This document shows positions 12,111 through 64,000 of a DNA stretch of 64,000 nucleotides, one piece after another. How positions within the stretch are numbered: the stretch's first letter is position 1; each line of letters begins with the position of its first letter. This DNA is from Sipunculus nudus (Eukaryota; Annelida; Sipuncula; Golfingiida; Sipunculidae), in contig CM049315.1 of the NCBI GenBank assembly GCA_026874595.1, forward strand, positions 71,123,916 to 71,187,915, in the 5' to 3' direction. The notes beneath the pieces are model-generated. The model saw nothing but the letters and a program-made list of their open reading frames with translations. It was not told the DNA's origin and ran no database searches. A program made the position numbers and the translations under genes.

Positions 12111-14605
12111 GAAACAGCTAAATGTGGGTTATTGTTAAATAAGAGGATCATTAGAAAATGTGCAGTAGCTTAGTAAAAAAAGCAGAGCTAATAGAATAAA
12201 GACGATAAACTCAGAAAAAGAAGTTAAGCTTAGAAAAAGAAGTGGAGCAGCTAGAAAGTAATATTGGAGAGTGTAATGGTATTAGTATTATTGAAAAATA
12301 CAAAGATTTAAAGTAGAAACTTGAAGAATGTTATGATCTGATAACTGAGGGCATAATTATTAGATCCAGAGCTCAGTGGCATGAGCAGGGTGAGCACAGC
12401 ACAAAATATTTCTTAAATCTTGAAAAGGGAAATCATGAAATGACAGTTTAAAAAAAATTATAGTAGGGTCTGTAGAAACAATGGGTCACAACAAAATAAT
12501 GTCGCATATTCATGAATATTATATGCAAAGATTTTCAAGATCTTCAGATGTCACCTCGCAGGATTGTGATAAGTTCTTGAAAGGTATTTATGGATACCAA
12601 AACTGACTGAGGATGAGTCTTTGAAGTGTGAAGGTAACATCACTGTCACAGAGGTACTTGAATCCTTAAAAAGTATGCCAAATAATAAAACACCAGGGAA
12701 TGATGGAATAACAAAATAATTTTACTTGAGTTTATTAAATGAAGTAGGTTTTGAAATGACTGCTTGTTTAAATAAAGAGTATCACTCAGGAGAATTATCA
12801 GAGAGCCAAATCCAAAGAGTTATTAAGCTTTTAGACTAGATGTGTCGGAACGACACGAATGCCCCAGCCTGGGGCAAATTAGAAACATTTGTTAAATTTT
12901 GTAAAAAAAATTTGAAGTTCAGGAGGTGTAATATGCTCAAAAGTAGGTCAACAAGGGCAAAATGCAAACTCGATCTATAACGAGTCATTATCAAGCAACA
13001 CACCAAAAATCAGGCCAGTATCTGCAGGCATTGTGAAAAAAAGTCCATACGTGCATTTCATAAAAATTTCTGTCTTTCATGAAATTTTCTATGTTCAGGA
13101 TCTGTCATATGGTCAAAAATAAATCAACTGGGACAAAACGCGAACTTGATCTGTAAGTGGTCATTATGCGCCAACAGACCAAACATTAGGCTAGTATCTG
13201 TTAGCATTGCATTGCAAAAATAGAATATTGGCAAAAGCTGATAATCAGTAATAAATTTAAATTGGAGAGGTATGTACCATGTTTCATAACAATTCACCAA
13301 ATGCTTCCTGAGATATAAGCTCCTAAGTTTTTTTCTATACTAAGCTCTGTGACCTTGAAAAGTAGAAATTTTCTAAGTTAAGGAGCCGTTAAATGGTCAA
13401 AAGTAGGTCAACTGGGACAAAACACGAACTCGATCTATATCTGGTCATTATCTACCTACACACCGAAAATCAGGCCAATATCTACAGGCATTGGGAAAAA
13501 AAAAAGTTTAGGAGCCGTAAAAAGGTCAAAAGTAGGTCAACTGGGACAAAATGGTAACTCGATCTGTAACTGGTCATTATCTGCCCACACACCAAAAATC
13601 AGGCCAAAATCTGCAGGCATTGCAGAAAAAAATCCGTACATGTGTATTTGTCATGAAAATTTCTTTTTTATGAAATTTTCAAAGTTTAGGAGCCATAAAA
13701 AGGTCAAAAGTAGGTCAACTGGGACAAAACGGAAACTCGATCTGTAACTGGTCATTATCTGCCCACACACCAAAAATCAGGCCAAAATCTGCAGGCATTG
13801 CAGAAAAAAATCTGTACATGTGTATTTGTCATGAAAATTTCTATTTTTTATGAAATTTTCAAAGTTTAGGAGCCATAAAATGGTTAAAAGTAGGTCAACT
13901 GGGACAAAACGGAAACTCGATCTGTAACTGGTCATTATCTGCCCACACACTAAAAATCAGGCCAAAATCTGCAGGCATTGCGAAAAAAAGTCCGTACATG
14001 TGTATTTGTCATGAAAATTTTTATTTTTCATGAAATTTTCAAAGTTTAGGAGCCGTAAAACTGTCAAAATAAGGGCAACTGGGACGAAACGCAAACTCGA
14101 TCTGTAACTGGTCATTATCTGCCCACACACCAAAAATCAGGCCAAAATCTGCAGGCATTGCGAAAAAAAGTCCGTACAATGTTTGATTTCGGAATGACGG
14201 AAGGACGAAAGGACGGACATGGGTAAAACTATATGCCCCGGCAACTTTGTGGCGGGGGCATAAAAAAACCGGGTAAGGACAAAAGATATATAGAATCCTG
14301 TAAACCAATAATCTTAATTAATGTTGACTGTAAGATGTTGTGTAAAATGTTAGTTTCAACATTGCGAAAGGCATTGCAAAAATTGGTCCACTCAGATCAG
14401 AATGCTTTTGTTCTAGGCCGCTATATCTGAAATTCAGTTTGCTTAATCAGTGATATGACGGAATATAGTGAAACAGAACAGCAAAATTCTTTTTGGAGCT
14501 GACTTTAAAGCAGCTTTTGACTCATTAGATCAGGTCTTCATGTTAAGTTTTCTAAAAAAAAACAAGCCTTTGGTCCAGTGATCATTAACTGGATAAAAAC
14601 TTAGC
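12110..14605 (+). mobile_element. Degenerate L1/Tx1-like LINE ORF2 remnant, interrupted
   Basis: In mixed frames the plus strand encodes the endonuclease-RT linker (LITEGIIIRSRAQWHEQGEH, TKYFLNLEK), then the RT entry motif NNKTPGNDGITK and the stretch ESQIQRVIKLL. After a 1.43 kb insertion the same domain resumes with KPGKDKRYIESCKPIILINV, DQNAFVLGR and ADFKAAFDS. Order and motifs match the RT at 51518-52530 in this window, so this is a relative of that element. Several stops and frameshifts show it is dead. It ends abruptly near 14600, just before a GC-rich recombinase gene. The endonuclease, the YADD-type box and the 3' end are missing. Confidence 0.85.
12835..14266 (+). mobile_element. Tandem-array element (pearl/HINE-like) inserted in a LINE
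   Basis: The element starts CTAGATGTGTCGGAACGACA (hairpin TGTCG/CGACA), followed soon by ATGCCCCAGCC. The inside is about seven degenerate units of roughly 180 bp with the core AAAAGTAGGTCAACTGGGAC, ACTCGATCTGTAACTGGTCA and TCAGGCCAATATCTGCAGGC. The end is ATGCCCCGGCAACTTTGTGG then CGGGGGCATAAAAA. The near-5' motif TGCCCC(C/A)GCC is the inverted complement of GGCGGGGGCA near the 3' end, that is, subterminal inverted repeats plus a 3' hairpin. No coding capacity. The copy at 37934-39230 confirms both borders. Known HINE/pearl elements of bivalves have this layout. The class call is an inference. Confidence 0.85.
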
Positions 14606-15391
14606 ATAATAAGATCAGATGGTTTTACACGGCGCCCCGCTCTTGAAAGCCAGCATGGAGGGCGGTCTTTCTCAGCTCACACGCAACGCAAGGCCGGGGA
14701 CCCTGCGGTCCTACCTCTACACCATCAGACTGTACACCGATTTCAAACAGTGCCGAGACCAGTCCTTGGAAGGCGGCGCGCAGTAGGGCCGGGTGGCGGC
14801 GCTGGTCAGCAACTGGTCGCGGGCAGCGCCAGGCAGGCCGGCCTGCGCAGGAAAGAGCAAGGTCAGGCTTTATGGTGCTGTTTCGTCCCGTTAGAAGTTT
14901 CCTTTGTCTTTGTCCAGGTCAGTGTGAAATGCCAGGCCAGACTGTCAACACATCATTGTGCCCCTCTTGTGTGGTTGCGCTTGGACAAAGCTGCGTCTCC
15001 GTGGATACTGGTTGCCGAAGACGTTATGACGGAATACAATTCGGCACTCACGTTGCTCCTTCCGTGTTTGTCTTGTCCTATTTCACAACCACACTAGTAC
15101 ACGCTGTGGTACCATCTCTCTCTGGGCTGCTGCTGACGCTTTGCTGCTTTTACATTGAAGAGCTCATAGCGACGCCCGAGGACTTGCACCAATACCTATC
15201 AAGCGACTTCGCCCACCGCATATACGCGGCCTTCGAGGTCGGCGCCTGCCCGGCACGGGAAATGCGGGACCAGCTTATGCTTTGTTTGTTAATCCACAAC
15301 GCCCAGCGGGCTGGGCCGCTACTGCATATGGCCACCGAGGACCAGGCCAGGGCCAGAACTCAGTGATAATGGTGATTAGTCACTTCGCGCT

Positions 15392-15413
15392 GGGGGGGGG
15401 GGGGGGGGGGGGG
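15392..15413 (+). repeat. Poly-G tract, 22 G
   Basis: Uninterrupted run of 22 G inside the putative intron between recombinase exons B and C. It has quadruplex-forming potential. Confidence 0.95.
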
Positions 15414-15678
15414 TGTTCTAGGGCGTTTTCATGGATGTGGAAATACAACGTCTCGTTTCTTTTGCAGGTGGACCGGCATAAGACCGCCAGCAGTTACGGG
15501 TGCGCGGTGCTCGTGCTTGACCTTGCCTGGCCTGCTAGGTGGAGATGTGGCGGCGGCGGGTGCGGCTCACGCTGTTTCTTCCAACCTGCCGACACATGTT
15601 CCCCAGCGACAGGGGGCAGGCGATGATTGACTGTGAACTGCCGCGCGCCGTGCAGGCGGCGTGGAGCAGGAGAAGCTT

Positions 15679-15697
15679 GGGGGGGGGGGGGGGGGGG
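15679..15697 (+). repeat. Poly-G tract, 19 G
   Basis: Uninterrupted run of 19 G just after recombinase exon C. Confidence 0.95.
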
Positions 15698-16584
15698 ATG
15701 CTCGATTACCAACTGACTAACATGTCCACGAAAACTTTAATATAACTACGCGCACTGGCTATAACATAGACAAAAGGACATAATATTTAAGCCGTTATTA
15801 ACCCTGCTCTACCAGTTTCGATGAACACATTCCTACCACTACCCTGCTGGTAGATGTCGCCATCAGCACAACACGAAATAATTCACTGTTTTACATGGTA
15901 ATACTACTAGAGTCACTAAAGCGGGTCTTCAGGGGTGATTAATGGTCTCTATCCTGGTATTTTTTATGAGACATTTACGGTTAATTTTGTACATTTGACA
16001 TGTGACTCTCCGTATCTGGGTGCCGATTACTGGCGGCTGCATCGTTTAAGTGACTTTTCTGTTTCTCCCGTTTGCAGCTGCACCAGATGGACCGAACCAA
16101 GGTCGAGCGGCACTTGCTGTCGAGGCACATGGAGCACGCTACCAGCACGGCCGACCAATATTATGATGTGACATACCGAATACGAAGCAGCGTCCAAAAG
16201 GGTGCGTATGGTCATGGAGCTTTTCGTTGTTGTCTTATTATCGTTTTTGTTACGGCGTGTTGATTTACGAATTATTCACCCCCCGCGCTTCATTGCTTTC
16301 TTTTAGAATGTGCTGTTCACATTGTTGTAATAATAAATGAACAAACTGGTGATGGAGTTGCCTTAAGAGGGTTAACTTGGAACGACAGGAGTACATTTCA
16401 GTGATGTGAATGCGAGTGGATTTGTTTTATTATTATTATTATTTTTAAGCACCAGTATTAATGAAAAGTATATACTTGCCCGTTCCTACCAATGGAAAGG
16501 GTATTCATGGTGAACGATCTTATTGGTCTCGAAACTGTATTGCAAGAACTTCATGTGGTTTATCTTATTGTGATAACTTGGAAG

Positions 16585-19562: not shown

Positions 19563-20990
19563 CTAGACGACCATAGGTCGAGCACTTGCCGGAAATGGTG
19601 TGGAAACAAAAAGTGAACGAGCAATGAAGACGTGGAAGAAAACAAGCTACAATTAAGCAGTCTGACCAACAATAGGCAAACATTGATATATTTTAGGGGT
19701 TCGACTGCAGCGCCCTCTAGCCACCATACAAAAAAAAAATGAAAAATAACTGTCTAGATATTATTGCAAGACATTAGAAGTACCAGTTTCAAAAGGATTC
19801 ATGCAAAAATGTAGCTTGTAGAATGCTATATGTAAGATGCAAGCACCAGGAAGCAGGTGAAACTGAAGACAACTGACAAACAGACAGACATACTGACAAG
19901 GTGCCACAAGGTTGAGACAAGATGACTTAACCCGAATATGGAGAAGACCCAGACGAAGTAAATATGCTACAATTTATGCAATAAAAATTTAGTTTTGGAG
20001 TTATGGCAAAAAATTATATGGTGAAATAGTGCCCCCTAGCAGACATTTCCAGAAATTAAAAAATCACATTCTAGATATTATAGCAAGACATAAGATGGAC
20101 CAGTTTCAGAAGGATTTCTGCAAAACTGAATCTTGTAGATTGCTATATGTAACATTCAAGCACCAGCAAGCAGGCAAACATCGAGGACAACTAACAAACA
20201 GACTGACATACTGACAAAGTGACACAAGGTTGAGACCAGATGACTTAACCAATTTATAAAAAAGTCCCAGGGGAAGAATGTTTGCTGTAATTTACATAAG
20301 AAAGATTTATAGTTTTGGAGATATGGCCGAAACATGATTTGTGAAAACTAGTTGACTGCAGCGCCCCCTAGCGGCCAGAACTAGAAAATGAAGAATCTTG
20401 TTCGAGATATTAGTGTAAGACATAACATTTACCAGTTTCAAAAGGATTCCTTCAAAACTGTGCCCGGAAGAATGGTATATGTAAGACACAAGAACCAGCA
20501 AGCAGGCGAATTCGAGGACAACTATACTAACAAAGTAACACAAGAATAAGACCACCTGACTTGCTCAGGTTATGGGATAAAATAAGCTATAGTTTCAGTA
20601 ATGGAGAATTATTGAGGACAACTGACAAACAGACAGTCATACTAACAAGGTGACAAAAGCTTGAGACAGGTTGACTATACCAATTGATGAAAAAGACCAA
20701 GAGAAAATAAGCCATAGTTTCTGTAATGGAGAATTAAAGTTATGGAGATATAAATAATTAACAAATAATATGTTAAGGAGGTTCATGTGCACCGCCCTTA
20801 GCGGCCATATTCGGATAAATGAAAAACTTATTTCGAGATATCAGTAAAAGACATTACATGTACAAGTTTCAAAAGGATTCCTTCCAAGCTTTGGCCTGTA
20901 GAATGCTATATAGGCGAAGAACCAGCAAGGAGGCGAATTTGATCACAACTAACGACAAACAGTCAGACATACTGAAAAAGTGACACAAAA
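19563..20990 (+). repeat. ~330 bp tandem array with CTCF-like core
   Basis: Four degenerate units start at about 19700, 20028, 20357 and 20787. Each opens with a GC-rich core (GCAGCGCCCTCTAGCCACC, GTGCCCCCTAGCAGAC, GCAGCGCCCCCTAGCGGCC, GCACCGCCCTTAGCGGCC). Then come AGATATTA-type sequence, AAGACATTA, ACCAGTTTCAAAAGGATTC, TAGAATGCTATATGTAAGA, AGCACCAGCAAGCAGG, GACAACTGACAAACAGACAG and TTGAGACAAGATGACTTAACC. At 19563, CTAGACGACCATAGGTCGAG has the CTAGA-plus-hairpin form of the 5' ends at 12835 and 37934, so the array may be the body of a related element. No matching 3' hairpin was found. Confidence 0.8.
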
Positions 20991-36129: not shown

Positions 36130-36900
36130 AGTGGTTGTCTGGGTCGGCACAAGTGAAGCTTTGAAGACCTTCCAAACACACTCCGCTATGTCAACCGAAA
36201 AAGAACGTTGAATATCCTACACAAGTCGGGCTTCTCAGAGAAATTTGTCACCCGGGTTGCACCCTTTCACAATTTTTTAACAAAAGTTTATTAAAAACTT
36301 CGCAATTTTTTTTTGTTACCGCAAACACTCTAGACCACGAAAAAACTTCCAGTCTATATGGTATAAGGTTTATACTGAATGTAACAATGACATTTAGTTA
36401 TCACAGCAATACCATGATGTTCGCTGACTTTGTAAACTATGCGTTTTGCTTGTGAAACTGACCTAGGCGAGATGTTGTATTGCTTCGCCGATCAATAAAT
36501 TTAAGCAACATTAAGATAATGTTTCACATACACTGAAAGCAGAACAAAAAGACATGCAGGTGGGGCAACCTACAATACCAGTCCACTTATACAATTAATA
36601 TGTTGTGTACAACCATGCAAGTATTTAAGGGGTTACGTTAGTGAAATTTGTGCTTGAAATTACTTTTGTTCAGCACAAAACTGCTTGTTTTTTTCAAATA
36701 GAGCACAGTGACAATATATCGCTGTTCAATATGTCCTTGCATTTTTCCTAATTATAATTTGTTCGTGATCACAAGGCTGATGCCAACTTCCATTCCTCTT
36801 GTAACTAGTGTCAATATACCCCAAAAGTCGGGGTGCTATGAAGATGCACATTAGCACTAATCATAAAGTATGCATTACATTATCCAAAATCACATTTAAA
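36130..36900. other. Unassigned sequence
   Basis: No coding similarity or repeat family recognised. Confidence 0.4.
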
Positions 36901-37679: not shown

Positions 37680-39400
37680 GGTGTAGAACTTATGTTCTTT
37701 CAGTCTTTGACTGTTGGCCATTCATCGGTTTGTCTGTTAACAGGATTTGGGATTTTGCTCAATTTATTTATTTATTATCTGCATTTACTTAGCTCTTTTA
37801 GGAAAAAAGCTTTAAAAACTTTTAAAATCCCAGGATCATCTTTCTCAAGTTTGTTTGAATGGTTCGTGTTTGGTGATTTTTGAACGAGTTAAGGAATTCT
37901 AGTTTAATCTGGCCAAAAAAAAAAAACATACAACTAGATGTGTCGGTACGACACGAGTGCCCCCGCCTGGGGAAAATTAGAAACATTTGTAAAATTTTTC
38001 AAGTTCAGGAGGTGTCGTATGGTCAAAAGTAGGTCAACAAGGGCAAAATGCAAACTTGATCTTTAATGGGTCATTATCAAGCAACACACCAAAAATCATG
38101 CCAGTATATGCAGGCATTGTGAAAAAAAGTCTTTCATGTTTAGGAGCCGTAAAACAATCAAAAGTAGGTCAAGCGGGACGAAACGCGAACTCGATCTGTA
38201 ACTGTCATTATCTGCCCACACATTAAAAAATCAGTGTGGTATCTGCAGGCATTGAGGAAAAAAAGTCAGTTCATATGCGTTTGTTATGAAAATTTCCATT
38301 TCTCATGAAACTTTCTATGTTCAGGAGCAGTCAAATGATCAAAAGTAGGTCAACTGGGACAAAACAAGAACTCGATCTGTAACTGGTCATTATCTGCCTA
38401 CACACCAAAAATCCGGCCCGTATCTGCAGGCACTGCGAAAAAAAAGTCAATACATGTGCATTTTTTAAAGAAATTTTCTATGTTAGAGCACCGTCAAACG
38501 GTCAAAAGTAGGTCAACTGGGACAAAACGTGAACTCGATCTGTAACTGGTCATTATCTGCCCACACACCAGAAATCAGGCCAATATCTGCAGGTATTGCT
38601 AAGAAAAGTCTGTACAAGTGTATTTGTCATGAAAATTTATATTTTACATGAAATTTTCTATGTTCAGGAGCCATAAAACAGTCGAAAGTAGGTCAACTTG
38701 GACGAAACACAAACTCGATCTGTAACTGGTCATTAGCTGCCAACACACCAAAAATCAGGCCAATATCTGCAGGCATTGCGAAAAAAAAGTCCGTACATGT
38801 GTATTTGTCATGAAATTTCATATTTTTCATGAAATTTTTTATGTTCAGGAGCCGTAAAACGGTCAAAAGTAGGTCAACTGGGACAAATTGCAAACTCGAT
38901 CTGTAACTGGTCATTATCTGCCTACACACCAAAAATCAGGCCAATATCTGCTGGCATTGCGAAAAAAAGTCCGTACATGTATATTTGTCATGAAAATTTC
39001 TATTTTTCATGAAATTTTCTAAGTTTAGGAGCCGTAAAAAGGTCAAAAGTAGGTCAACTGGGACGAAACGCCAACTTGATCTGTAACTGGTCTATATCTG
39101 CCCACACACCAAAAATCAGGCCAATATCTGCAGGCATTGCGAAAAAAAGTCCGTACAACTGTTTGATTTCGGAATGACGGACATGGGTAAAACTATATGC
39201 CCTGGCCACTTTGTGGCGGGGGCATAAAAATCACAAACTCAGGAACGGCGTGAGCTGTCATCACCAAATTTTATGCCAGTGTTGGTCACACGAGTCATTC
39301 CGCCACCTGCATTGGCCTTTTTTCGACAAGGTCCTTGGTTTTCAGTACTTTTAACCTATAATGCTATAATTTTTCTCAGGAACAGCAGGGGCTAGCTTAT
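37680..39400 (+). repeat. Repeat family F, split by a younger element
   Basis: 37780-37920 (AGGAAAAAAGCTTTAAAAAC, GTTTGAATGGTTCGTGTTTG, GATTTTTGAACGAGTTA) matches 55945-56120. After the inserted element, 39231-39400 (GAGCTGTCATCACCAAATTT then TATGCCAGTGTTGGTCACA and CCACCTGCATTGGCCTTTTT) matches 56155-56310. The two halves are therefore one copy of the 55-56 kb repeat interrupted at 37934/39230. Confidence 0.7.
37934..39230 (+). mobile_element. Tandem-array element (pearl/HINE-like), copy 2
   Basis: Start CTAGATGTGTCGGTACGACA (perfect hairpin TGTCG-GTA-CGACA), then GTGCCCCCGCC. About seven ~180 bp units share AAAAGTAGGTCAACTGGGAC and CTCGATCTGTAACTGGTCAT. The end is ATGCCCTGGCCACTTTGTGG then CGGGGGCATAAAAA. 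The start motif TGCCCCCGCC and the end motif GGCGGGGGCA are exact inverted complements. It is the same family as 12835-14266 and non-coding. Unit similarity is highest toward the 3' side. Confidence 0.85.
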
Positions 39401-49202: not shown

Positions 49203-50075
49203 ATGTCTGGGGATGATGACAGAAAAAGATTAAGGTCGACTTTATCCAGCACTTCAAGTATCTCTAGTACATATACCCACAAGGTAAAAAAAAAACTAAA
49301 TACACTTTAAAAACTGTTTCTGGTGACAGTGGAAATAAAAACAAAGAAATGGCAGAAGGGATTGTAACACAGAAGGTCCTCAGTGACATGCTAGTCCAAC
49401 TGAAATTAGAGATAAGAAACGATTTCAAATCTGTCATAGATACATATATAGAGAAAATAGAATGCAGAGTATTTGAACTTGAAACAAAAATAGATGCTCT
49501 AGAGAGAAGGGTTGCCAGGGTAGAAAAAGAAAAGGGTTGCCATGTTAGAAAAAGAAAACTATGACTTAAAAATGAATCAGAGGAAAGTAAAGAGAAAGCA
49601 CACCAAGCGAAAATACTTGCCATTAAGAACGAGCAGTACTCTCGCAGGTTTTAATGTCAGAATCACAGGGGTTACAGAGAGGGCAACAGATGAAAACTGT
49701 AGAGAAACAGTTTATAGCCTACTAAATGCAAAAATGCACATGAACATGCCAACAAATGCCATAGTTACTGTACACAGGGTAGGTAAGAAAAGACAGGATA
49801 AACCAAGACCAATAATAGTAAGGTTTAAAAATATAGATGACAGAATAGCAGTACAAAAAGAGAGAAAACAACTTAAAAATACAGGGGTCATGATTGTTGA
49901 TGATTTGTGTCATGAAATGGTTCAATTGTTCAACAGGGTTAGAAAGGACCCTAAAGTATTAACTGCATGGACTTGGAATGGCAAAATATTTGCCAAAGAT
50001 AAAGACGATTCCAATCATATTGTAGAGGTGAAATATGGATATAACCTTGTTCCTACATTAGTCATTACATTATAA
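49203..50075 (+). pseudogene. LINE ORF1 (RNA-binding protein), frameshifted
   Basis: ATG at 49203 opens MSGDDDRKRLRSTLSSTSS. The frame is lost in an A9 run near 49290 and continues in the next one with EGIVTQKVLSDMLVQLKLEI and a coiled-coil-like heptad region (VFELETKIDALERRVARVE, about 49480). A second shift near 49545 leads to the C-terminal domain: GFNVRITGVTERATDENCRE, VHRVGKKRQDKPRPIIVRFK, LKNTGVMIVDDL and WTWNGKIFAKDKDD, with a stop at 50073. A coiled coil followed by an RRM-like nucleic-acid-binding domain is the normal plan of L1/Tx1 ORF1 proteins. A short AT-rich spacer of about 220 bp separates it from ORF2. Confidence 0.85.
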
Positions 50076-50299
50076 AACAGTGAGGGGACAAACCACCCAG
50101 TTATGAATAAGTGATGTATGTTTTTCTTATATTCGTTGATTTATTTGAAAGTTCATGCTTGCTATTATATTCAGTGTAAGTGTTTGTTAAATGTTTGTCT
50201 GTGTTATCCTTGTAATTGATGCATACAGTAGAAATATTTATTTAATTGGAGGTATAATGAAAAATATATTCAAATATTTAAATCACTTCACACATACTT

Positions 50300-51060
50300 A
50301 TGTGTAACACAGCTAATTGTGTTAATATAGCAAATTGTGTTAATATAATCTCTTGAAACGTAAGAGGAATGAGGAAGTATGAAAAGAGAAAAAAGATTTT
50401 TAATTGGTTTCACAAACATGGATGTGTTCAAGGAGTTGGTTTCATTCAAGAGTCTCATAGTAAAATAGAAGATATAGATAGCTGGTCCCGCCAATGGAGA
50501 GGTGATGTGTACTTTTCACATGGAACAAATTCCAGTAAAGGAGTTTCAATTATTGTTGGTGAACACTTGGAATTTAAATATAAAGATGTGATTGTAGACA
50601 AAGAAGGAAGATATATATTATTGAAATGTTTTATTCAAGATTGTTCCTTCCTGTTATGTAATATATATGCTCCAAACACAGAGACAGAGCAACTGCAATT
50701 TTATGAAAATTTCAATACTGTAATAAGAGAAAATTGTCTCGATGATGACTTGAAAGTGGTCATAGGTGGAGATTTTAATGTTTGTTTAATTCAAATTGAT
50801 GCTGATTGAGGTCAAGCACTAATAAAAAAGAGAGTTGTATCTAAAATTAATTTAATTATCAATAAATTTGCTCTCATTGAGTTAGAAATCCAAATTAAAA
50901 AAAAATACATGGAGAACATTTAAACCTTTGACACAGAGGCGTTTAGATTATTTTCTTGTAACAAATAATATGCAGTCTTATGTAAAAAGTACAGATATTA
51001 TTGTTTCAGTGGATACTGATCATTCTGTTATTGTTATGAAGCTTTTATTTCAAGAAATAA
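50300..51060 (+). pseudogene. LINE ORF2 APE-type endonuclease domain
   Basis: ATG at 50300; an in-frame TGA lies at 50354-50356 just before NVRGMRKYEKR. Motifs in order: NVRG, FIQESHS (metal-binding Glu), YAPNTE, VIGGDFNVC, RRLDYFLVTN (reached after a frameshift near 50900) and SVDTDHSVI (catalytic DH). This is a complete set of APE-endonuclease signature motifs, so the domain was functional before the stop at 50807 and the shift. The endonuclease nicks target DNA to prime reverse transcription. Confidence 0.85.
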
Positions 51061-51097
51061 GTTTTGCCAAGGCTACTGGAAATTTAACAATTCGTTA

Positions 51098-52535
51098 TTG
51101 AAAGATAAACAGTATATAGAAGACTTAAAGAAATGTATAATAGAATGGAAAGCAGAGATAAAGAATAGTGATCAAGCAAAAAGATGGGAATATACAAAAT
51201 ACAAAATAAGAGGATTTACAATTAGATATTCAAAAATAAAATCAAGAAAAAGAAAGAAAGATCTTGAACAATTGGAAAGAAAATTAAAAGAATTAGAACA
51301 TAGATTGGGTCACCAGTCAAATGAATCAATTTTAAAGGATTATATAGAAACAAAACGTCTGGAAGAAAATTACAACTACATTACAGAAGGGATAATAATT
51401 CGCTCTAGGGCACAGTGGCGAGAGGAAGGGGAGAGAAATAGCACTTATACTCTCTCAATGTAGAAAAAAAGAAACAAAAGAAAATCACGTCAGAAAATTA
51501 ATAATTGATGAAGCAAAGTGATATACTTCATGAACTTCTATACTATGAAGTTCAAAAGGTCTATAAATGTTAGTCATCCTGAATGTGAAGAGTATTTAAA
51601 AGATCTTATTATCCAAAATCTATCAAATGAACAGTCTTCATTATGTGACGTCCCCTTATCCTTTCCAGAAGCTTATAAAATTGTAAAATTAATGCCATCA
51701 AATAAAACACCTGGTAATGATGGATTGACCAAAGAATTTTATGAATATTTTTTCCCAGTGATAGGAGCAGATTTAGTAGATTCTATAAATTACAGTTTTA
51801 TAGAAGGTCAATTGTCACCTAGTCAACGACAAGCAATAATTACTTTACTCGAGAAACCAGGAAAAGATACACATTACATTAAGTCATGGCGACCCATTAG
51901 CCTAATTAATGTTGATTTTAAAATACTAAGTAAAGCACTTGTTGAGAGAATGAAAAATATATTACCTAAGATTATACCTAAAGAACAAAGTGCTTTTATC
52001 AAAGGGAGATTTATTGGTGAACCAATAAGGCTAATTCAAGATGTCATGTATTATTGTAAACAAAAAGATGTATCTGGTATTGTAATTGCTGCAGACTTTG
52101 CCGCAGCCTTTGACTCAGTTGGTCACACATTTATGTACTGTGTATTAAGGAAAATTGGATTTGGTGATTGTGTTATTTCATGGATAAAGACTTTGTATAC
52201 TAATTTAGAGAGTGCAATTATCAATAAAGTAGTGACTAGTCATTATTTTTCAGTAGGCACTCGCACTCTCAATTATCAATAATGTAGTGACTAGTCATTA
52301 TTTTTCAGTAGGCACCCGCCAAGGTGATCCTATGGCATGTTATCTGTTTATGTTAGTATTGGAAGTTTTAGCACAACGAATTCGTACAAATAAAAATATT
52401 AGAGGCATTTATACTTTGTCATCCATAGAGCATAAAATGTGTATGTTTGCTGATGATTCGACTTTCTTTCTTCAAGATGTAAATTCTTTTAATGAGTTAG
52501 TGAAAGTTTTAAACTGTTTTTCACATTACCTGCAA
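51098..52535 (+). pseudogene. LINE ORF2 linker and reverse transcriptase
   Basis: The linker has a very basic, helical stretch (YKIRGFTIRYSKIKSRKRKK) and TEGIIIRSRAQWREEGERNS. A frame change near 51463 leads to the RT: SNKTPGNDGLTKEFYEYFF, LLEKPGKD, WRPISLINVDFKILSKAL, EQSAFIKGRFIG, ADFAAAFDSVGH (motif A), SVGTRQGDPMACYLFMLVLE (motif B) and CMFADDSTFF (motif C, FADD). A 55 bp tandem duplication just before motif B adds 1 base modulo 3 and breaks the frame. Coding ends near 52530 where the twin-priming break lies. Confidence 0.9.
52215..52319 (+). repeat. 55 bp tandem duplication inside the RT domain
   Basis: CAATTATCAATAAAGTAGTG with its continuation to GGCACTCGC at 52215-52264 is repeated at 52270-52319 with two differences, after a 5-base filler. 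Confidence 0.95.
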
Positions 52536-55799: not shown

Positions 55800-56860
55800 G
55801 GTGCGGCGTCGTGTGTCGTCTGTACGTTAACCATAGCTATCTGAAAACGGCAGGAGCTAGCATCACCAAATTTTTTGCAAATAATCAGTCATCCAAAAAA
55901 ACTATATCGGATTTTATTTTTTTTAACTGATTTTTCTTAGATTTTATAGGGAAAAAGCTGAAAAAGCTTTAAAAATCTTCTTCTCCGAAACTGTCCAGCG
56001 AATTTTTCCAATATTTCACAGAAATGATTCCTAAAACAATTTTTCTCAAATTTGTATGAATGGTTCCAGTTTGGAGATTTTTGGCCGAGTTACAGGAGGT
56101 TGAACTTTGTTAACTGTGCAAAAAAAGCATATTAAAATTTAAATCTCAGAAACGGCTGGAGCTATCATCACCAAATTTTATGCCAATGTTGGTCACATAG
56201 GTCATATCTGAAATCGAGGTATTGGTGGCGCCACCTGCATTGGCCGGTCACATAGGTCATATCTGAAATCGAGGTATTGGTGGCGCCACCTGCATTGGCC
56301 TTTTTTTTACAGGGGTCATCAGTGCCCATATCATACTGACGGCTACAAAAACTTCTTCTCTGAAACCGTATGGCCAAATTCTTTAATATCGCACAGGAAT
56401 GATCCTATGGTAGTGCGTTCTGAAGTTTGTTCAAATGGTCTCAGTTCAGTGATTTTTGGCTAAGTTATGGGAAGCTGAATTTAGTCATATGCCATTACAG
56501 CCCATTTTAGCTCAGTGGCTACAAAGAACGTCTTCTCAAAAACTACTGGGCCAAATTCTTAAATTTCACACATTGATTATCCTCAAATGTTGATAATTCA
56601 ATTTTGCTCAAAAAGTATTGGTTCAGTGCTTTTTGGCTGAGTTACGGGAAGCTGAACTGAGCCAGTTTGCTGTATCTTCCTATATGAGTTATAAACTTGC
56701 GAAACGTTTTTCGACTGATGCCACTGAAGCCAGTTTCTTAAATATTTTTCAAGAATAATTCCTACAATAATTCTTATAATAATTGTCATTAATGGTTCAA
56801 CATGAATGATTTTTGGCTGAATTATGGAGATTGAATTGAGTCATTTTACTATATATGGTA
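55800..56860 (+). repeat. Repeat family F, tandem ~170-190 bp units
   Basis: GATTTTTGGCCGAGTTACAG (56078), GATTTTTGGCTAAGTTATGG (56451), GCTTTTTGGCTGAGTTACGG (56629) and GATTTTTGGCTGAATTATGG (56807) mark four unit ends. TTCTTCTCCGAAACTG-like wording (55978, 56350, 56530) marks the starts. Two copies of a 55 bp block with GGTGGCGCCACCTGCATTGG lie at 56191-56300. The family also occurs, split, at 37680-39400. Confidence 0.75.
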
Positions 56861-57289
56861 GTTGTGTTATGCAGTTACATCGAGCCTGGCACCAGTTTAT
56901 CAGCATCTATTTCATCATGCCACTAGACATTTAGATTTCAGGTTATATTTGGTTAATATTGACAAGAAAGGTTTTTAAAAGCTTTTAAAAAAATTCAGAT
57001 TTATGGTTTAAGTTATTCATCATACCAGGCAATGTTACAATCATGTAAATTCAGCTCTCTGTGGCTATATAAAGAAAGCTGTACAGGAATTATAAATTAT
57101 TGGTATCCCTACTCAACTTAATTTAAGAATTTGCCATCAATGATATATATCTGTATTTTAATTTTGCATTCAGTATGCATCCGTAATAGTTTTACATATA
57201 TTCCTGATTTCTTTTTTATATAAAGTCAGCTGAAAAGCATTTTGTATTGGGAAAACAAATTTCAAAGTTTTTTCAAGTAGGGTCCACTT

Positions 57290-57700
57290 CTGTGTACAGA
57301 TGGCAGCACTTGGTTTACCATTGGCAGATAGCCAGTGCCTTGATGTTGGCCATTAGCCAGTGCCTTGATGTTGGCCATTAGCCAAGATGATGTCAGCTCT
57401 ATAAATAGCTTTGGTAGAGTGCCAGGATTGGAAGAAGTGGAGCCAGGTATAGATCAAGAGTTCACTCAGTGCTGTAGCTGCATTCTATTTATAGCTTTGG
57501 CAGACTGCTCACTGCACCATATTTGGCACCAAAGTTCAGCCTGAATCTATTTATAGCTTTGGCAGAGTGCCAACTGTGTCAGATTATGCAACAGGTCAAG
57601 AGTTCACTCAGTACTGCCAGGTACAGGTCAAAAGTTCACCCAGTCTAGCCAGGTGCAGGTCAAGAGTTCACTCAGTGCAGTAGCTTGAGGCAGCAATTTG
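57290..57700 (+). repeat. Composite of short tandem repeats
   Basis: CAGTGCCTTGATGTTGGCCA twice (about 57330-57385). TTTATAGCTTTGGCAGA-type wording three times (about 57400, 57488, 57549). AGGTCAAGAGTTCACTCAGT-type wording five times (57445-57680). No open frame. Confidence 0.8.
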
Positions 57701-57829
57701 TCACAGGTCACTCAGGGGCAACTGCCTTACTCAACTTAGCCTTGTCAGCCCAGTGCATCAAACTCTGGGGAAGTTTGATGTATTGGACTGATACCTGTCT
57801 ATGCGTCTTTGATGGTATTCTCATTTACA

Positions 57830-59430
57830 ATACAGGTGGCGCCACATACATTGACTTTTGCAGTGTATGCGCCTGCTTATTTCTACAGAGTTATTTGATA
57901 CATCAGCCTAAAATTGGGTATGTTTATACTTATTGGTTAGCTTTATAGTGTACAAGACTGGTGGCGCCACCTACAATAATTTTTGCACAGTGCATGTCCC
58001 TGCTTATTTCACAGGAGGGGTTTGACATATCAGTCTAACATTGGGCATATGTATATATCTCTTTGTTGTATATGGGACTGGTGGTGCCAGCTACAATCAT
58101 TGTATCCGCCAAAACAGAGTTTTGAGGATACTATGTTTTCAGTCGGACACAGACGCTGTCGCCATCGCCGCATAGGTTTTCGGAGAACTTGTCCATAACC
58201 ACTAGGCAGAATTTTTTAAAAAATAGGAATTATGATCGGTAAAATGTGAACTGCTGCGCCTCATTTTTGGTTGACCTCTGACCTTTCCTCTCTGCCCAGC
58301 GTCCATTTGAGCATCTGTTTCCACACATAAACCCACATATCTCGGGAACCGTTTGACCGATAAGGCTAAGGTTTTTATCACAAATGTAGCCCTTGGAAAG
58401 ATTTATAACATACACTAAAATGGTGGCGCCACCTGAAAACATTTTTGCACATCATCTGCCTTGGGATAAAAACAATGATATCTCTGCATTGGTTGGACTT
58501 ATCCACCTGAAATTTTGCATGTGTATTCATCCTGAACAGTTTCTTGATTTTGTAACAGGTGGCGCCACCTACATTCACGTTTAAGCTGCAGACATCCAAG
58601 CTCATATCTCGGGAACCGTTTAACCAGTTGGGGCAAAATTCTGCATGTGTATAGATCTCCCATAGCTCTTTATCATACGCAAAACTGGTGATGCCACCTG
58701 CAACCATTTTTGCACAGCGTCCGTCTGTTTGTCTGCTTGGGCTAAAATCACTCATATCTCAGTAGGAGTTTGACTTATCTGCCTAAAATTTTGCATGTTT
58801 ATACATCCTGGATAGCTTTCTGGATATTTTGGTAGGTGGCGCCACCTACATTTATGTATATGCTGCAGATATTCAGGCTTATATCTCAGGACTGGTTTGA
58901 TATATCCCCCTAATTTTGCATGTGTATAGGTCTCGCATATCTCTTAATCATAAACAAAACTGGTGGTGCCACCTGCAATCATTTTTGCACAGTATCCGTC
59001 TGTTTGTTTGCCGTAGCATAAAATCACTCATGTCTCAGCAGTGGTTTGACATATCTGCCTAAAATTTTGAAGGTTTATACATCTTGGATAACTTTCTGGA
59101 TTTTGTGGCAGGTGGCGCCACCTAAATTATGTATAATGCTGCAGACATTTAAGCTTATATTTCAGAACTGGTAAGACATATCCCCCTGAAATTTTGCATG
59201 TGTATAGATTTCACATAGATCTTAATCATACACAAAATTGGTGGCGCCACCTGTCACCATTTTTGCACAGCGTCCGTCTGTTTTTCTGCCGTAGGCTAAA
59301 ATCTCAGTAGTGGTTTGACTTATCTGCCTAAAACTTTGCATGTTTATACATCTTGAACAGCTTTCTGGATTTTGTGGTAGGTGGCGCAACCTACATAGAC
59401 ATTTCGGCTGCAGACATCCAGGCTATTATG
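57830..59430 (+). repeat. Palindrome-bearing satellite-like array (GGTGGCGCCACC)
   Basis: Palindrome copies start at 57835v, 57960, 58080v, 58422, 58558, 58687v, 58835, 58962v, 59111, 59240 and 59380v (v = one or two mismatches). From 58422 they alternate between two contexts: one followed by TGCAATCATTTTTGCACAG and CCGTCTGTTTGTCTGC, the other by TACATT and GCTGCAGACATCCAGGCT. Spacing is about 128-150 bp, so the higher-order unit is near 277 bp. An inverted terminal module (58101-58420) interrupts the array. Short open frames across it reflect the repeat (GGAT peptide from the palindrome), not a gene. Confidence 0.85.
58101..58420 (-). mobile_element. Inverted 3' terminal module of a hairpin-ended element
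   Basis: Read on the minus strand it ends CATAGTATCCTCAAAACTCT, GTTTTGGCGGATACAAT. This is a long hairpin closely matching the 3' end at 62131-62166 (CATAGTATCTCCAGAC...GTCTGGCGATACAAT). Upstream lies GCGGCGATGGCGACAGCG, parallel to the GGC-repeat before the other end. Confidence 0.5.
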
Positions 59431-59439
59431 CAACACACC

Positions 59440-59935
59440 TCACTCTATTTACCCTTGCCACTCAATCCATGCCTCACTTCACCTTTCCTCCTTTGATTTT
59501 GGCGGATACACAGTCGCTTGTTGACAACCCATATTCTAATGTTTGTGTTGTGTGCACCCATGCCAGAGTTGCAGCAGTGATGTTTGTTTGTTTCTTGTTC
59601 TAAGTGTTTAGTACTTGCATTGTTAATATACATGTTACACATGTTCTTCAAAAGTAATGGTCCAGCATTGAAGCATTCCTAGGCTTCTCATGAGAGGTTT
59701 ATCTGTCGTCATCACCTTACCAACAGCGTCATACTGTTGGTTTGTCCATCATAAATATGGTCAAACACTTGTCGAAAAGGGAGACAAACATCGTTAGCCT
59801 CACACACGTCGTTACTACAATAACTGCTGGTTCTAAATGTTTCCAACTTCCCATTGGGTCTGTGTATGACCCAGTTAAATGATTAGTCATGCTCCTCTTG
59901 TGATCTGAATCATCTCTCAAAGAAATCATCCTAAA
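59440..59935. other. Unassigned sequence
   Basis: No recognised feature between the satellite-like array and the family B repeat. Confidence 0.4.
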
Positions 59936-59939
59936 GAAA

Positions 59940-60235
59940 ACTTTAAAAACAGGTCATCAGAGGCCACGGACACTAAAACAAGACCATCTGTGACACTGAA
60001 ACTTACAAGGTATGATTGTACATTTCAGTGCCCTGGATGCTCTATGAGCCACGTGACACTGATGACTCCCATGCAACCCGGAATATTTTCAATCGTTTTG
60101 TTTCCTTTTTGTCAAGTACACCTTATTTAAAAATGTTTTAAATATGTTTTCGCAAAAACGTCATGGGAGAAAATTAATAATGACACAGTTTTGAAAGCTT
60201 GAATTGTCAGCGTCTTAAAAGTAGAAAAAGGACTT
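59940..60235 (+). repeat. Dispersed repeat family B, copy 4
   Basis: ACAAGACCATCTGTGACACT, GATTGTACATTTCAGTGCCC then TGGATGCTCTATGAGCCACG and TGACACTGATGACTCCCATG, with the tail GTCATGGGAGAAAATTAATA. Same block order as 24660-24900 and 11180-11400. Confidence 0.75.
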
Positions 60236-60871
60236 AATTTTATAAATCATCATGTGCGGTAAAGATGGATGGAATAAAAGTGTAAATACAGGAGGAAAGT
60301 TAAAGCATAAACAGTTTACTTTCTGAATGAGTCCACACAGTTCCACCAAAATATGCAAAAAGCTTCGGACATCGGTGGATAAGTATGGCGTAATGCAAAG
60401 ATTTATAGGATATATACAGATCAACGGTTTTCCTCACCTGGTTTGTTAATATGGTTTGTTAATATGTCTGAAGAGACATTTAAGCAAAACATACTAGTAT
60501 GATTCATTTGTTACTGTGTTCACTCCTGCCTTTGTTCAATGAAAACACTACTGTTGCTTCCAATTTTTATACATGGATTATAACCGGGTTGTTGCCAAAA
60601 CTAGGAAGCTACTCTTTTTTTATTTCCATAAAAACCCAAAAAGTCGGGCACATTTTTTTATTATTTCTAGATAACACCGTCTGCTGCGAGGGGTGTTACG
60701 ACCCATAATGTAATAACCGGCCCATAATGTAATAACGGCTCATATTGTAATAAAAACGACCCATAATGTAATAATAGCCCATAATGTAATAAAAACGGCC
60801 CATATTGTAATAACCATACCCTGCCCATATTGTTATAAAATCGCAAGTGGGTAAAACGGCCCATATTGTAA

Positions 60872-62166
60872 CTAGATATTTCTTGGCACCGCAGGTGCCA
60901 TAGTATCGCCAGACAATTATTCCCCCCCCCCCCCCCCCTTTAAGAATAGGCCCCCCATCTTCAGCAACAATTAATATCAGACCACACTCATAGAAAAGGT
61001 CATTCTCATAGAAAAGGTCATGATCCAAATTTCAATATACATCATCCCCTAACCCATGTCTATGTATATGCAAGAAATCTGTCCATTAGTTTTTAACTTA
61101 TAATGCTCACAGTACTGTTAAGTGGCAATGATGGGGTATTAAACGGCACGAAAACAAGTAAAAGAATAACAGGTGGCACCACCTGTTTCCCGTACATGAC
61201 AACACTATCCAAGATCTTCGTTCAAGTTGATTTTTGGACCAATCAATGCATCCCTTATTGAGAAATTAATGATTTTGTGTGATTTTCACCATATATGGCA
61301 ATATTCAAGGTCAAGGCCACTCATTGGAAAGGTCATGACCCCTATTCAAATAAACATTATCCTATAACCCATATCCATGTATATGCATAATATGAAAGAA
61401 ATTTGTCCATTAGTTTTTGACTTGTAATGCTCACAGTACTGATAAATGGCAAAGATGGGGTATTAAACGGCACAAAACAAGTAAAAGAATAACAGGTGGC
61501 GCCACCTGTTTCCGGTACATAACAATACTTTCCAAGATCTTCGAACATGTTGATTTTGGACCAATGCATGCATCCCTTATTGAGATATTAATGATTTTGT
61601 GTAATTTTCACCATATATGGCAATATTCAAGGTCAAGGCCACTCTAATAGGAAAAGTCATGACCCCAATTTATATATACATTATCCCATAACCCATGTCT
61701 ATGTATATGCATAATATGAAAGAAATCTGTCCATTAGTTTTTGACTTATAATGCTCACAGTACTGTCAAGTAGCAATTTTGGGGATATTAAACGGCATGA
61801 AAACAAGTTAAGAATAATAGGTGGCGCCACCAGTTTCTGGAACATGACAACCCTATCCATGATCTTCGATCAACTTGATTTTGGGATCAATCCATGCAAG
61901 TTTTCTTGAGATATTTAAGAATTTGTGTGATTTTCCCCAAAATTGAACCTATTCAAGGTCAAGGTCACTCTCCTAGTGGAGGTCATGACCTCATTTTAAA
62001 TAGGCGTCGTCCTGTCACCCATATCTATACATATACCAAGTTTGGTAAAGATCCGTGAAATATTTTTTGAGTTATTGTGTCCAAAAGAAATCTCTGCGGC
62101 GGCGGCGGCGGCGCGACCCTGCCTAAACCATAGTATCTCCAGACTATGTCTGGCGATACAATAAAA
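60872..62166 (+). mobile_element. Hairpin-ended tandem-array element nested in the inverted-repeat element
   Basis: Starts CTAGATATTTCTTGGCACCG CAGGTGCC (hairpin GGCACC/GGTGCC), then ATAGTATCGCCAGACAA. Ends CCATAGTATCTCCAGACTAT, GTCTGGCGATACAATAAAA. The near-5' motif AGTATCGCCAGACA is inverted as TGTCTGGCGATACA at the 3' end, and the end itself folds. The interior holds a 17 C tract (60922-60938), three ~325 bp units and (GGC)n near 62097-62113. It has the same architecture as 12835-14266 with different sequence. Confidence 0.7.
61012..61985 (+). repeat. ~325 bp tandem repeat, three units
   Basis: Unit starts AAAAGGTCATGATCCAAATT (61012), GAAAGGTCATGACCCC (61327), GAAAAGTCATGACCCC (61650) and GGAGGTCATGACCTC (61977). 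Each unit has CTGTCCATTAGTTTTTGACT, TAATGCTCACAGTACTG, ATTAAACGGCAC, then the palindrome (61172v, 61495, 61820) and CAAGATCTTCG. The middle unit extends it to AACAGGTGGCGCCACCTGTT, a perfect 20 bp palindrome (61491-61510). Confidence 0.85.
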
Positions 62167-62189
62167 TCGCAGGTGGGTAAAACGGCCAA

Positions 62190-62536
62190 TAATTTTATAA
62201 ATCAAATTTCATGCAAATTAACTTAGACAATTCGAATATTGACTTTTCGTGACACGAATGTGTAGGTGAACATACAAGTATGAAAAAAAACTGGATTACA
62301 TAACTCTGGAGAAAAACAACACTTTTAATTCACAACAGTCTGTTTCACGTGGTGCGACCCGATCATCAGGTGAATGTATATACGGCTGTAGTATTTTTGG
62401 CTTCTGAAAAAAAGCCCAACAAAAACACGTATTTAATGAATAATTTTGGTTTGCTGAAAAAACCTTAATATTTCTTTTTGCTATATTTCTGGGATTTATT
62501 TAAGCGCCTGGGTCCATTAAACCTAATACACTTGTG

Positions 62537-62589
<53 letters not shown>

Positions 62590-63300
62590 CCAAAATGTAA
62601 ATATTTTGTCAATTTTAACAGATAAAATATACAAAACTCATTATCGATACATTTTAATGTATTTTAATTCTTTTTAAAATATAAATGAAACTTTAAATTT
62701 AAAAGCGTTTAGCTCAATGTATCATAGAGAATATTTTACACGATCTCTCGAAACCTCCCGAGATTTAGAATTATAAATGTAGGTACTGCTGCAATTTTTT
62801 GGTGCTCATATATGCATTGGTTAAGATGTCTTAGGTCAATATGTATAACACATCGCATAGATTAAGAGCTTTCAACACATGTTTTTGAAGTTAAAACCTG
62901 GATGTGTCATTCGTGCGATTTAAGAGTTTACAATTTAATTTTATTTAAAAATTAGCCCAAACAACATAACAACAGTTTGAAAATGCCGGTTTCTGTGTTC
63001 TAGAGGTAGAGCATAGGGCTCAGAGCGGGGAGATTCAGGGGCGTAGCCAGGTTTGAGGGAGGCAGGGGGCCATGTTAGTGGCGGATCCAGAAATTCGAAA
63101 GGGATGGGGGCAGGCGCTAATATGCATATAAAACTGTTAAATATACGTGTGTATATATATATATATATAATTATTATTATTAAAATAATAATATTATTAT
63201 TATATTTTTATTATACGTTATATTTGAGTGTATGAAAATATGATTTTTTTTTATTCAGTTGTGAACCATGGTTTCATTAAGGTTAGTAACAGGTTCATAT
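62190..63300. other. AT-rich interior with microsatellites
   Basis: (AT)n at 62535-62587 and a shorter one at 63152-63169. No coding similarity. A transposase frame for the surrounding inverted-repeat element was looked for here and not found. Confidence 0.5.
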
Positions 63301-63575
63301 ATAAATATGTTATTACAATATGGGCCGATTTGCCCACTTCCAGTTTTAATACAATATGGGTAGGGTATGATTATTACAATAACGGTCGTTTTTATTACAA
63401 TATGGGCCGTTATTACAATATGGGCCGTTTTTTATTACATTATGGGCCTATATTACAGTATGGGCCAGTTTTATTACAATATGGGCAGGGTATGATTTTT
63501 ACATTATGTGTCGTTTTTATTACAATATGGGCCGTTATTACATTATGGGCCGGTTATTACATTATGGGTCGTAAC

Positions 63576-64000
63576 AAGGGGTTTTACCTTTGATATTATT
63601 ATAGTAGCCAGCTTTCGGTTGGTGACTACAGTCGTATCTGTATGAAAAGCCATTTAAGTTCAACATTTTAGATATCGTAAACAATATGGCAAAATAAAAA
63701 CCCAAAGATTTCCTTTGAATTTCTGATTCGCGGCCTCTCTATTTCGTAATGCTATGGCCCCACAAATCTTTGGAACAGAGCGCTACATAATTTTAAGGGG
63801 GGGGGGGGGTATTGTTGTGATAGACCGGATTAGACTTCGATATTTAATGACTTCGATATTTTATATACAACTCTGAACAGTCAAACACTTCTCTACCAAA
63901 AATGTCTACATTATAAAAATGAAAGTGAAGCCGTTTTTTAAAGCTTTACCACCATGTTAAGCACGGTTTAGTGTAAGATTGCATGGTTTATTGTTTCCAA
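63576..64000. other. Unassigned sequence with a 13 G tract
   Basis: G run at 63797-63809. No other feature. Confidence 0.5.

Follow-up and report, generated by a model that had tools for sequence, protein, structure and literature searches.

A directional 13-bp palindromic word retained in the central tandem repeats of non-autonomous Helentrons of Sipunculus nudus

The palindromic 12-mer GGTGGCGCCACC recurs in a 64,000-nt stretch of the Sipunculus nudus genome (contig CM049315.1, positions 71,123,916–71,187,915; hereafter the window), where the repeats that contain it are the central tandem repeats of non-autonomous Helentrons (HINEs). The word is retained more strongly than the sequence on either side of it, and what is kept is a directional 13-mer, GGTGGCGCCACCT (AGGTGGCGCCACC on the other strand), not a hairpin. 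The three repeat contexts in which it occurs, a 55-bp block, a 277-bp satellite and a 325-bp array, share common descent. We propose below that the word may serve as a protein-binding site whose presence favors the units that carry it.

Abundance of the palindrome and its repeat families

Ten exact copies of GGTGGCGCCACC were located precisely where a first-pass annotation of the window had placed them, and six further copies with one or two mismatches (57835, 58080, 58687, 58962, 59380 and 61172) bring the total to 16 between positions 56224 and 61831. That annotation had judged chance an unlikely source of the repetition, and we agree: the window contains 20 matches with at most two mismatches, compared with a mean of 0.54 and a maximum of 3 in 100 dinucleotide shuffles. 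GGTGGCGCCACC is also the sole non-AT palindromic 12-mer present more than twice in the window. The repeat periods claimed for the three contexts were reproduced (55, 276 and 324 bp as measured), as was a single 20-bp extension of the palindrome, which is perfect and lies at 61491–61510. Genome-wide (1.43 Gb), the exact word occurs 111,729 times versus 14 for a reversed-pattern control, a figure that the control also gave for another pattern; arithmetic from the window base composition gives about 6 expected. Copies with a decayed central CpG add 22,806 + 22,877 = 45,683. Exact-pattern scans for the word gave 0 matches in viral contigs and 3 bacterial matches in prokaryote genomes, where about 3 are expected by arithmetic. 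An Rfam scan and a tRNA scan each gave 0 matches.

Units were compared in a sample consisting of 20 genome stretches, the loci L004–L007 and the window. Eighteen of the stretches (L014–L031) were placed blind, and 8 of these 18 contain at least one copy with at most two mismatches; L012 and L013 were picked for holding copies, and L008–L011 were excluded because they overlap L012. At this tolerance the sample yields 145 copies (true n 143, with 11 copies in F4 and 8 in F5, since L005 and L006 overlap and two copies are counted twice). Seven families of at least four members (F1–F7) take in 118 of the 145, and 27 fall in smaller groups or stand alone; under a looser threshold, four groups hold 137 copies and 8 stand alone, some of which are chance matches such as that in the microsatellite at 62107. 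F1 and F2 are the two half-units of the 277-bp satellite, to which F6 is related; F3 and F7 consist of units of ∼336 and ∼339 bp, F4 is the 55-bp-block type and F5 the 325-bp type. The layout of the unit comprises upstream ATATCTCRGRAAC and AAATTTTGCAT, ∼85–50 bp away, and the asymmetric 13-mer. In all seven families the alignment shows a box, ATATCTCRGRAAC or some variant, at ∼85 bp upstream of the word.

Retention of the word relative to its flanks

In the 277-bp array (11 units), pairwise identity is 0.90 for the palindrome and 0.55 for the flanks. By parsimony, the 12 word columns require 7 steps, three of them at the CpG, whereas flank columns require 2.45 each and the lowest flank window has 17 steps. 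The seven family consensuses are 0.976 identical to one another over the 12-mer, compared with 0.449 on its upstream side and 0.411 on its downstream side, and the upstream box (0.726) ranks second among the windows. A search with the upstream arm only found the word retained (at most three mismatches) in 83 of 88 full-arm units, 36 of them exact, and lost in 5. Random places in the same DNA have it at that tolerance in 88 of 5000 cases, real copies included. Across the 83 units, the non-CpG positions of the 13-mer are altered in 4.4%, compared with 10–16% at within-family flank columns, the former value being biased low because units with more than three mismatches were excluded. F4 copies in the genome stretches are at least 500 bp apart and outside short-period arrays, with the word retained.

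Several observations weigh against so strong a retention. The arm models were trained on palindrome-selected units, and the figure of 83 of 88 is thus not fully independent of the word. Of the 23 partial-arm matches, 16 are without the word, among them all 10 of the F4 type, and the upstream box can thus persist on its own. Inside single families the margin is modest (palindrome 0.93–0.98, flanks 0.84–0.90), and in six of the seven some flank 12-mer is conserved equally or better. In the 325-bp array alone (3 units), palindrome and flanks do not differ significantly (p 0.23). The two 55-bp copies are identical and therefore uninformative on this point.

The retained sequence has a direction. 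In the family orientation, T occupies position 13 of all 16 window copies, of 80 among the 83 sampled units and of all 7 families, whereas only 7 of those 16 window copies have A as the mirror base (position −1). Eight changes are found over the 192 positions of these 16 copies, and 0 are compensated across the dyad. Changes in the 83 units peak at the CpG (C6, 21; G7, 8), with decay in the direction C6>T in 18 and G7>A in 6, counts that are inflated by related units within one array. Because T13 is kept, its mirror is not and compensation is absent, these data agree better with recognition of the sequence by a protein than with a hairpin. The first-pass annotation had offered both a protein-binding site and a structure used in amplification; these observations suit the former better than the latter.

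Common origin of the repeat contexts

The same annotation had described the three contexts as unrelated, and had taken preservation of the word across them as a sign of selection. Its expectation that the 12-mer would be less diverged than its flanks is borne out, but the independence of the contexts is not: with the palindrome masked, the 55-, 277- and 325-bp contexts align mutually in register, as expected if they descend from one ancestral repeat. On masked profile search, anchored alignments and comparison of consensus arms, we rejected the view that the three contexts are unrelated. What is observed is thus differential conservation within one old, dispersed repeat family and not preservation across unrelated arrays. 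The 325-bp array runs in the opposite direction to the other two contexts, an inversion that the symmetry of the palindrome conceals on reading.

For the masked search, eight units from the 277-bp array were built into a profile, which was compared with the window, with the palindrome masked in both. The first 11 matches are the units of 57763–59433 themselves. Next comes 56128–56179 (+ strand, E-value (E) 0.0076), adjoining the 55-bp block, and the 325-bp array is matched next to its palindromes at 61281–61171 (− strand, E 0.23) and 61602–61528 (− strand, E 0.45). In alignments anchored on the palindrome in the homologous orientation, the scores at 56224, 61172, 61495 and 61820 are equaled by 0, 0, 0.03% and 0.95% of 4000 random sites and, for each, by 0 of 200 shuffles; in the opposite orientation, these four sites are equaled by 9–89% of random sites. 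The reverse search with 325-bp units has its best foreign match at 58744–58818 (E 0.2), in register, with an unrelated match close behind (E 0.25). With the palindrome included, blastn aligns the 55-bp-block region with 59147–59253 (E 7.6e-5). The consensus arms of F3–F6 match those of F1 and F2 at scores equaled by only 0–1 of 300 shuffles.

Some results speak less clearly for kinship, or against it. The cross-family masked matches to the 325-bp array have E of only 0.2–0.5, weak on their own even though the register is right, and one unrelated 22-bp match (13320–13299, E 0.3) ranks among them. A model built from the lone 55-bp-block unit meets the 277-bp array only at E 2.5–3.6, and the kinship of F7 to F1 and F2 is weak (27–28 of 300 shuffles as good). 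The second 55-bp copy, at 56279, is unremarkable in the anchored test, where 14% of random sites and 5 of 200 shuffles score as high, because its upstream arm is the first copy.

Anatomy of the carrier elements

Two elements, E2 and E3, contain the 277- and 325-bp arrays (Table 1). The ends of E2 were placed where homology ceases among copies with different flanks. Both have the features by which HINEs are recognized: (i) subterminal inverted repeats, typically ∼11–15 bp in HINEs (14 of 14 nt in E2; 16 nt at 94% in E3); (ii) 5′ hairpins, made with an inverted repeat located a few bases inward of the subterminal repeat, whose stems differ between E2 and E3 yet pair, with changes on both sides, and which are found in all aligned copies (five E2-like and two E3-like); (iii) a 3′ palindrome, of the form GTAGTC...GACTAC in the E2-like copies of L012, L018 and L027, shorter in L013 and decayed in the window, and GGCACC-TGC-GGTGCC in the E3-like copies of the window and L018; (iv) central tandem repeats and a microsatellite, with GCC clear in the E3 type and degenerate in E2; and (v) a T–T insertion site with no duplication of the target. 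A T is present on each side in 7 of 7 aligned copies, the 5′ T being attributable to either element or target; because some copies have common flanks, these represent fewer than seven independent insertions.

The five E2-like loci start T|GTATCCGCCAAAAC, with one change in L013, and the hairpin partner follows. Their 3′ ends consist of TTTTGGCGGATAC (altered at one position in three loci), the palindrome, and then TTCTAG|T or a decayed form. In the two E3-like loci a GCC microsatellite lies close to the 5′ end, and the element terminates in GGCACCTGCGGTGCC followed by TCTAG|T. The left end of E2 and the reversed right end of E3 are 71% identical across 79 nt (E 3.7e-5). Ten matches to the E2 repeat (at most one mismatch) were located in 264 kb and pair into five elements, and the E3 repeat has 6, one of which (8678) is without partner or array. 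Genome-wide, the E3 5′ end gives 590 + 613 matches (up to three mismatches allowed) versus 0 in a reversed control, and, among the matches listed, all 100 are exact. The termini were initially read as those of a TA-duplicating miniature inverted-repeat transposable element (MITE); this was dropped in favor of a HINE once copies at other loci fixed the ends.

Table 1. Word-bearing repeats, carrier elements and related units in the window
Feature	Position	Strand	Remarks
55-bp block, two identical copies (F4)	56191..56300	+	palindromes 56224 and 56279
F4 upstream arm with ATCTCAGAAAC box	from ∼56131	+	
Older, more diverged 138-bp-type units	57763..58101	+	palindromes 57835, 57960, 58080; broken by element at 58102
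E2, HINE-like	58102..59539	+	GTATCCGCC...TTCTAA, flanking T each side; five loci aligned
E2 5′ subterminal repeat and its inverted repeat	58102..58131	+	terminal hairpin GTATCCGCCAAAAC-AGA-GTTTTGAGGATAC
277-bp satellite	58319..59436	+	A and B half-units (∼138 bp) alternating; palindromes 58422, 58558, 58687, 58835, 58962, 59111, 59240, 59380
E2 3′ subterminal repeat	59497..59509	+	TTTTGGCGGATAC
E2 3′ palindrome	59510..59528	+	decayed in window; other copies GTAGTC...GACTAC
E3, HINE-like	60872..62159	−	5′ end 62159, 3′ end CTAG at 60872, T each side
E3 5′ subterminal repeat and inverted repeat	62133..62159	−	terminal hairpin
E3 GCC/GGC microsatellite	62097..62113	−	short
325-bp array (F5)	60996..62028	−	palindromes 61172, 61495, 61820
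E3 3′ subterminal repeat	60903–60914	−	
E3 3′ palindrome	60884–60900	−	TGGCACC-TGC-GGTGCCA
Degraded relative of 55-bp-block unit	39224..39319	+	∼21-base gap removed left palindrome half; CGCCACCTGCATTGGCC left
Probable solitary decayed unit (GGTTGCCCCACCTGCA)	36519..36680	−	word at 36559; p 0.0027 in one of 16 comparisons, made at 8 non-family sites

The flanking repeat around the E2-like element is identical in kind at two widely separated loci, L012:993–5962 and window 58102–59539, so that element and host repeat may have been duplicated together. E3 is nested in a foldback-like element at 60694–63576, which has long inverted ends of 18–21 bp GGCCCATAATGTAATAA repeats (82 nt, 96% complementary), termini TGTTACGACCC and a possible 5-bp duplication, AGGGG. 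An array of ∼180-bp units (55840–56870) surrounds the 55-bp block, and a unit at 55838–55882 has the upstream box without the palindrome.

A putative protein-binding site and its alternatives

We suggest, with about even confidence, that the word forms the core of HINE tandem repeats as a putative binding site for a sequence-specific protein, and that its presence favors the units or elements that contain it. A HINE family with the palindrome as the fixed core of its central tandem repeat would have spread through the genome, the 13-mer acting as a docking site for such a protein. Every site-bearing unit would raise the success of its element or array; the remainder of the arrays would drift, and units without the word would seldom be propagated. 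The reader could be (i) a host protein of zinc-finger type that opens or organizes chromatin, with CTCF as the first candidate or (ii) a Helentron replication protein, for which the units would act as iterons.

The CTCF consensus has the core YAGRKGGCRS and an upstream CCAS part. Within the word, AGGTGGCGC is presumably a CTCF-type core, which we treat as a candidate lead and not as a result. The minus strand of the unit reads YAGGTGGCGCC and matches the core at 10 of 10 positions in 12 of the 16 copies and at 9 of 10 in the other 4; in the window as a whole the core occurs 24 times versus 1.18 expected, with 18 of the 24 inside these palindromes. The base that completes the core (T13 of the top strand) is the one that is kept, its mirror is not, and CpG decay is mostly the C6>T change that the consensus tolerates. 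A tandem array at 19709–20953, of ∼320-bp units, has a canonical-looking CTCF-like word (of TGCAGCGCCCYCTAGCGGCC type) in three of its four units and a decayed one in the fourth. Kinship of this array with the palindrome family was tried and rejected (anchored scores p 0.17–0.87). CTCF is a lead because AGGTGGCGC sits in the best-kept part of the unit and because this second array bears a CTCF-like word, but chance alone would supply one core match per window, and the array thus counts for little by itself. Set against CTCF, the upstream CCAS part is unmatched (10–11 of 14 overall), and the outer GGTG, beyond the core, is conserved as well as the core.

Findings in other animals are favorable: squid boundaries of topologically associating domains are enriched in a CTCF-like motif (PMC9023564), and such a motif is the most abundant in annelid active regulatory regions (PMC7854359). 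It is possible, if doubtful, that the word is specifically a CTCF-type site and that Helentron arrays seeded insulator-like sites, as short interspersed elements (SINEs) did in rodents. That well over 110,000 sites for CTCF or a similar architectural protein were sown by Helentron arrays, one per unit over 1.4 Gb, and selected within the elements seems to us unlikely. An architectural protein as the reader would mean that the spread of mobile arrays had rewired chromatin folding in the lineage.

A role of the word in prompting arrays to amplify or rearrange, by breakage or recombination at the palindrome, such that only its bearers multiply, does not seem probable to us. The rarity of wordless full-arm units (5 of 88) would fit, as would published precedents: in bivalve phBglII400 satellites, 16 of 16 mapped junctions are within palindromes, and DTC84 elements retain a palindrome near the repeat junction (PMC5139131), while nematode satellites are reported to have conserved motifs at monomer junctions (PMC3694981). 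The same bivalve study, in contrast, finds the junctions of BIV160 and Cg170 to be unlinked to their conserved motifs (PMC5139131). Here, the borders of the 55-bp duplication (56191/56246/56300) are outside the palindrome, the F4 copies keep the word though they are outside short-period arrays, and T13 would be unnecessary to a palindrome-specific mechanism.

The asymmetric retention of T13 also tells against the DNA structure of the dyad, a cruciform or hairpin, as the kept feature. The dyad is perfect in 111,729 copies and reaches 20 bp in one case, as this explanation would call for, but a 12-bp dyad without a loop makes a poor cruciform, and we rejected the cruciform on 0 of 8 compensated changes in the window copies; we consider it highly improbable. 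A history without selection, with a young word or homogenized copies and with conservation that reflects shared ancestry and the picking of copies, is somewhat easier to entertain but still quite unlikely. The copies were originally found via the word itself, the contexts are one family and the excess within families is modest. Yet the flanks of the same units fall to 41–57% identity, which is impossible under shared recent ancestry, and the arm-only search recovers the word in 83 of 88 full-arm units. A protein-binding site that favors its carriers remains our preferred reading.

Other features of the window

Similar 180-bp satellites with a common 61-bp tail (93%) are present at two places, 13375–14266 and 38307–39230. 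The region 49524–52282 is probably a degraded long interspersed element, with a reverse transcriptase in its last open reading frame (ORF) (Pfam RVT_1, E 5.6e-16), the only match in a Pfam scan that covered 6 of the 17 listed ORFs. At 14000–16000 there is an island of 49% G+C, compared with 29–42% in other 2-kb windows, with three overlapping long ORFs; the ORF at 14647–15366, the sole one of the three scanned, is without a Pfam match.

Comparison with known systems

The anatomy of E2 and E3 is of a known kind, that of satellite-bearing non-autonomous Helentrons. Like E2 and E3, Cg_HINE of Crassostrea gigas (PMC7492417) has a 5′ subterminal repeat with an inverted repeat, a microsatellite, tandem repeats and a 3′ repeat followed by a palindrome. 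It too belongs to non-autonomous Helentrons with satellite-like repeats, and its divergent monomers have two relatively conserved segments in common. The shared segments in our case are the ATATCTC box and the 13-bp palindromic word, and the likeness to the oyster element is drawn at the level of layout. The DINE-1/HINE elements of Drosophila, mites and mosquitoes (PMC4067079) likewise have subterminal repeats of 12–15 bp, an inverted repeat near the 5′ subterminal one (in DINE-1), a 3′ stem-loop, TT insertion and, optionally, tandem repeats and a microsatellite. Unlike them, the elements described here have CTAG at the 3′ end before the flanking T, and the portion of that study compared mentions no word conserved per central repeat.

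The pearl and DTC84 MITEs and the BIV160–Cg170 satellites of bivalves (PMC5139131) share with E2 and E3 satellite-like arrays inside mobile elements, whose monomers each conserve either one palindrome or a pair of motifs. They differ in monomer length, and the printed BIV160 primers are without the word. SINE-borne CTCF sites of mammals (PMC3368268), in which a mobile element spreads one protein site, are comparable only if CTCF binds the word, and the carrier here is instead a Helentron array with one putative site per unit. As literal text the word turned up in one paper, which by its title concerns an endochitinase. Judged by titles, we found no report that combines Helitrons with CTCF in the literature searched, mostly open-access texts without supplements; relative to that literature, and as far as it shows, a 13-mer kept per unit on such a scale is new. 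Among satellite monomers that conserve short motifs while the remainder drifts, S. nudus offers a case in which one 13-bp word is kept across seven families, inside elements that have defined ends where examined.

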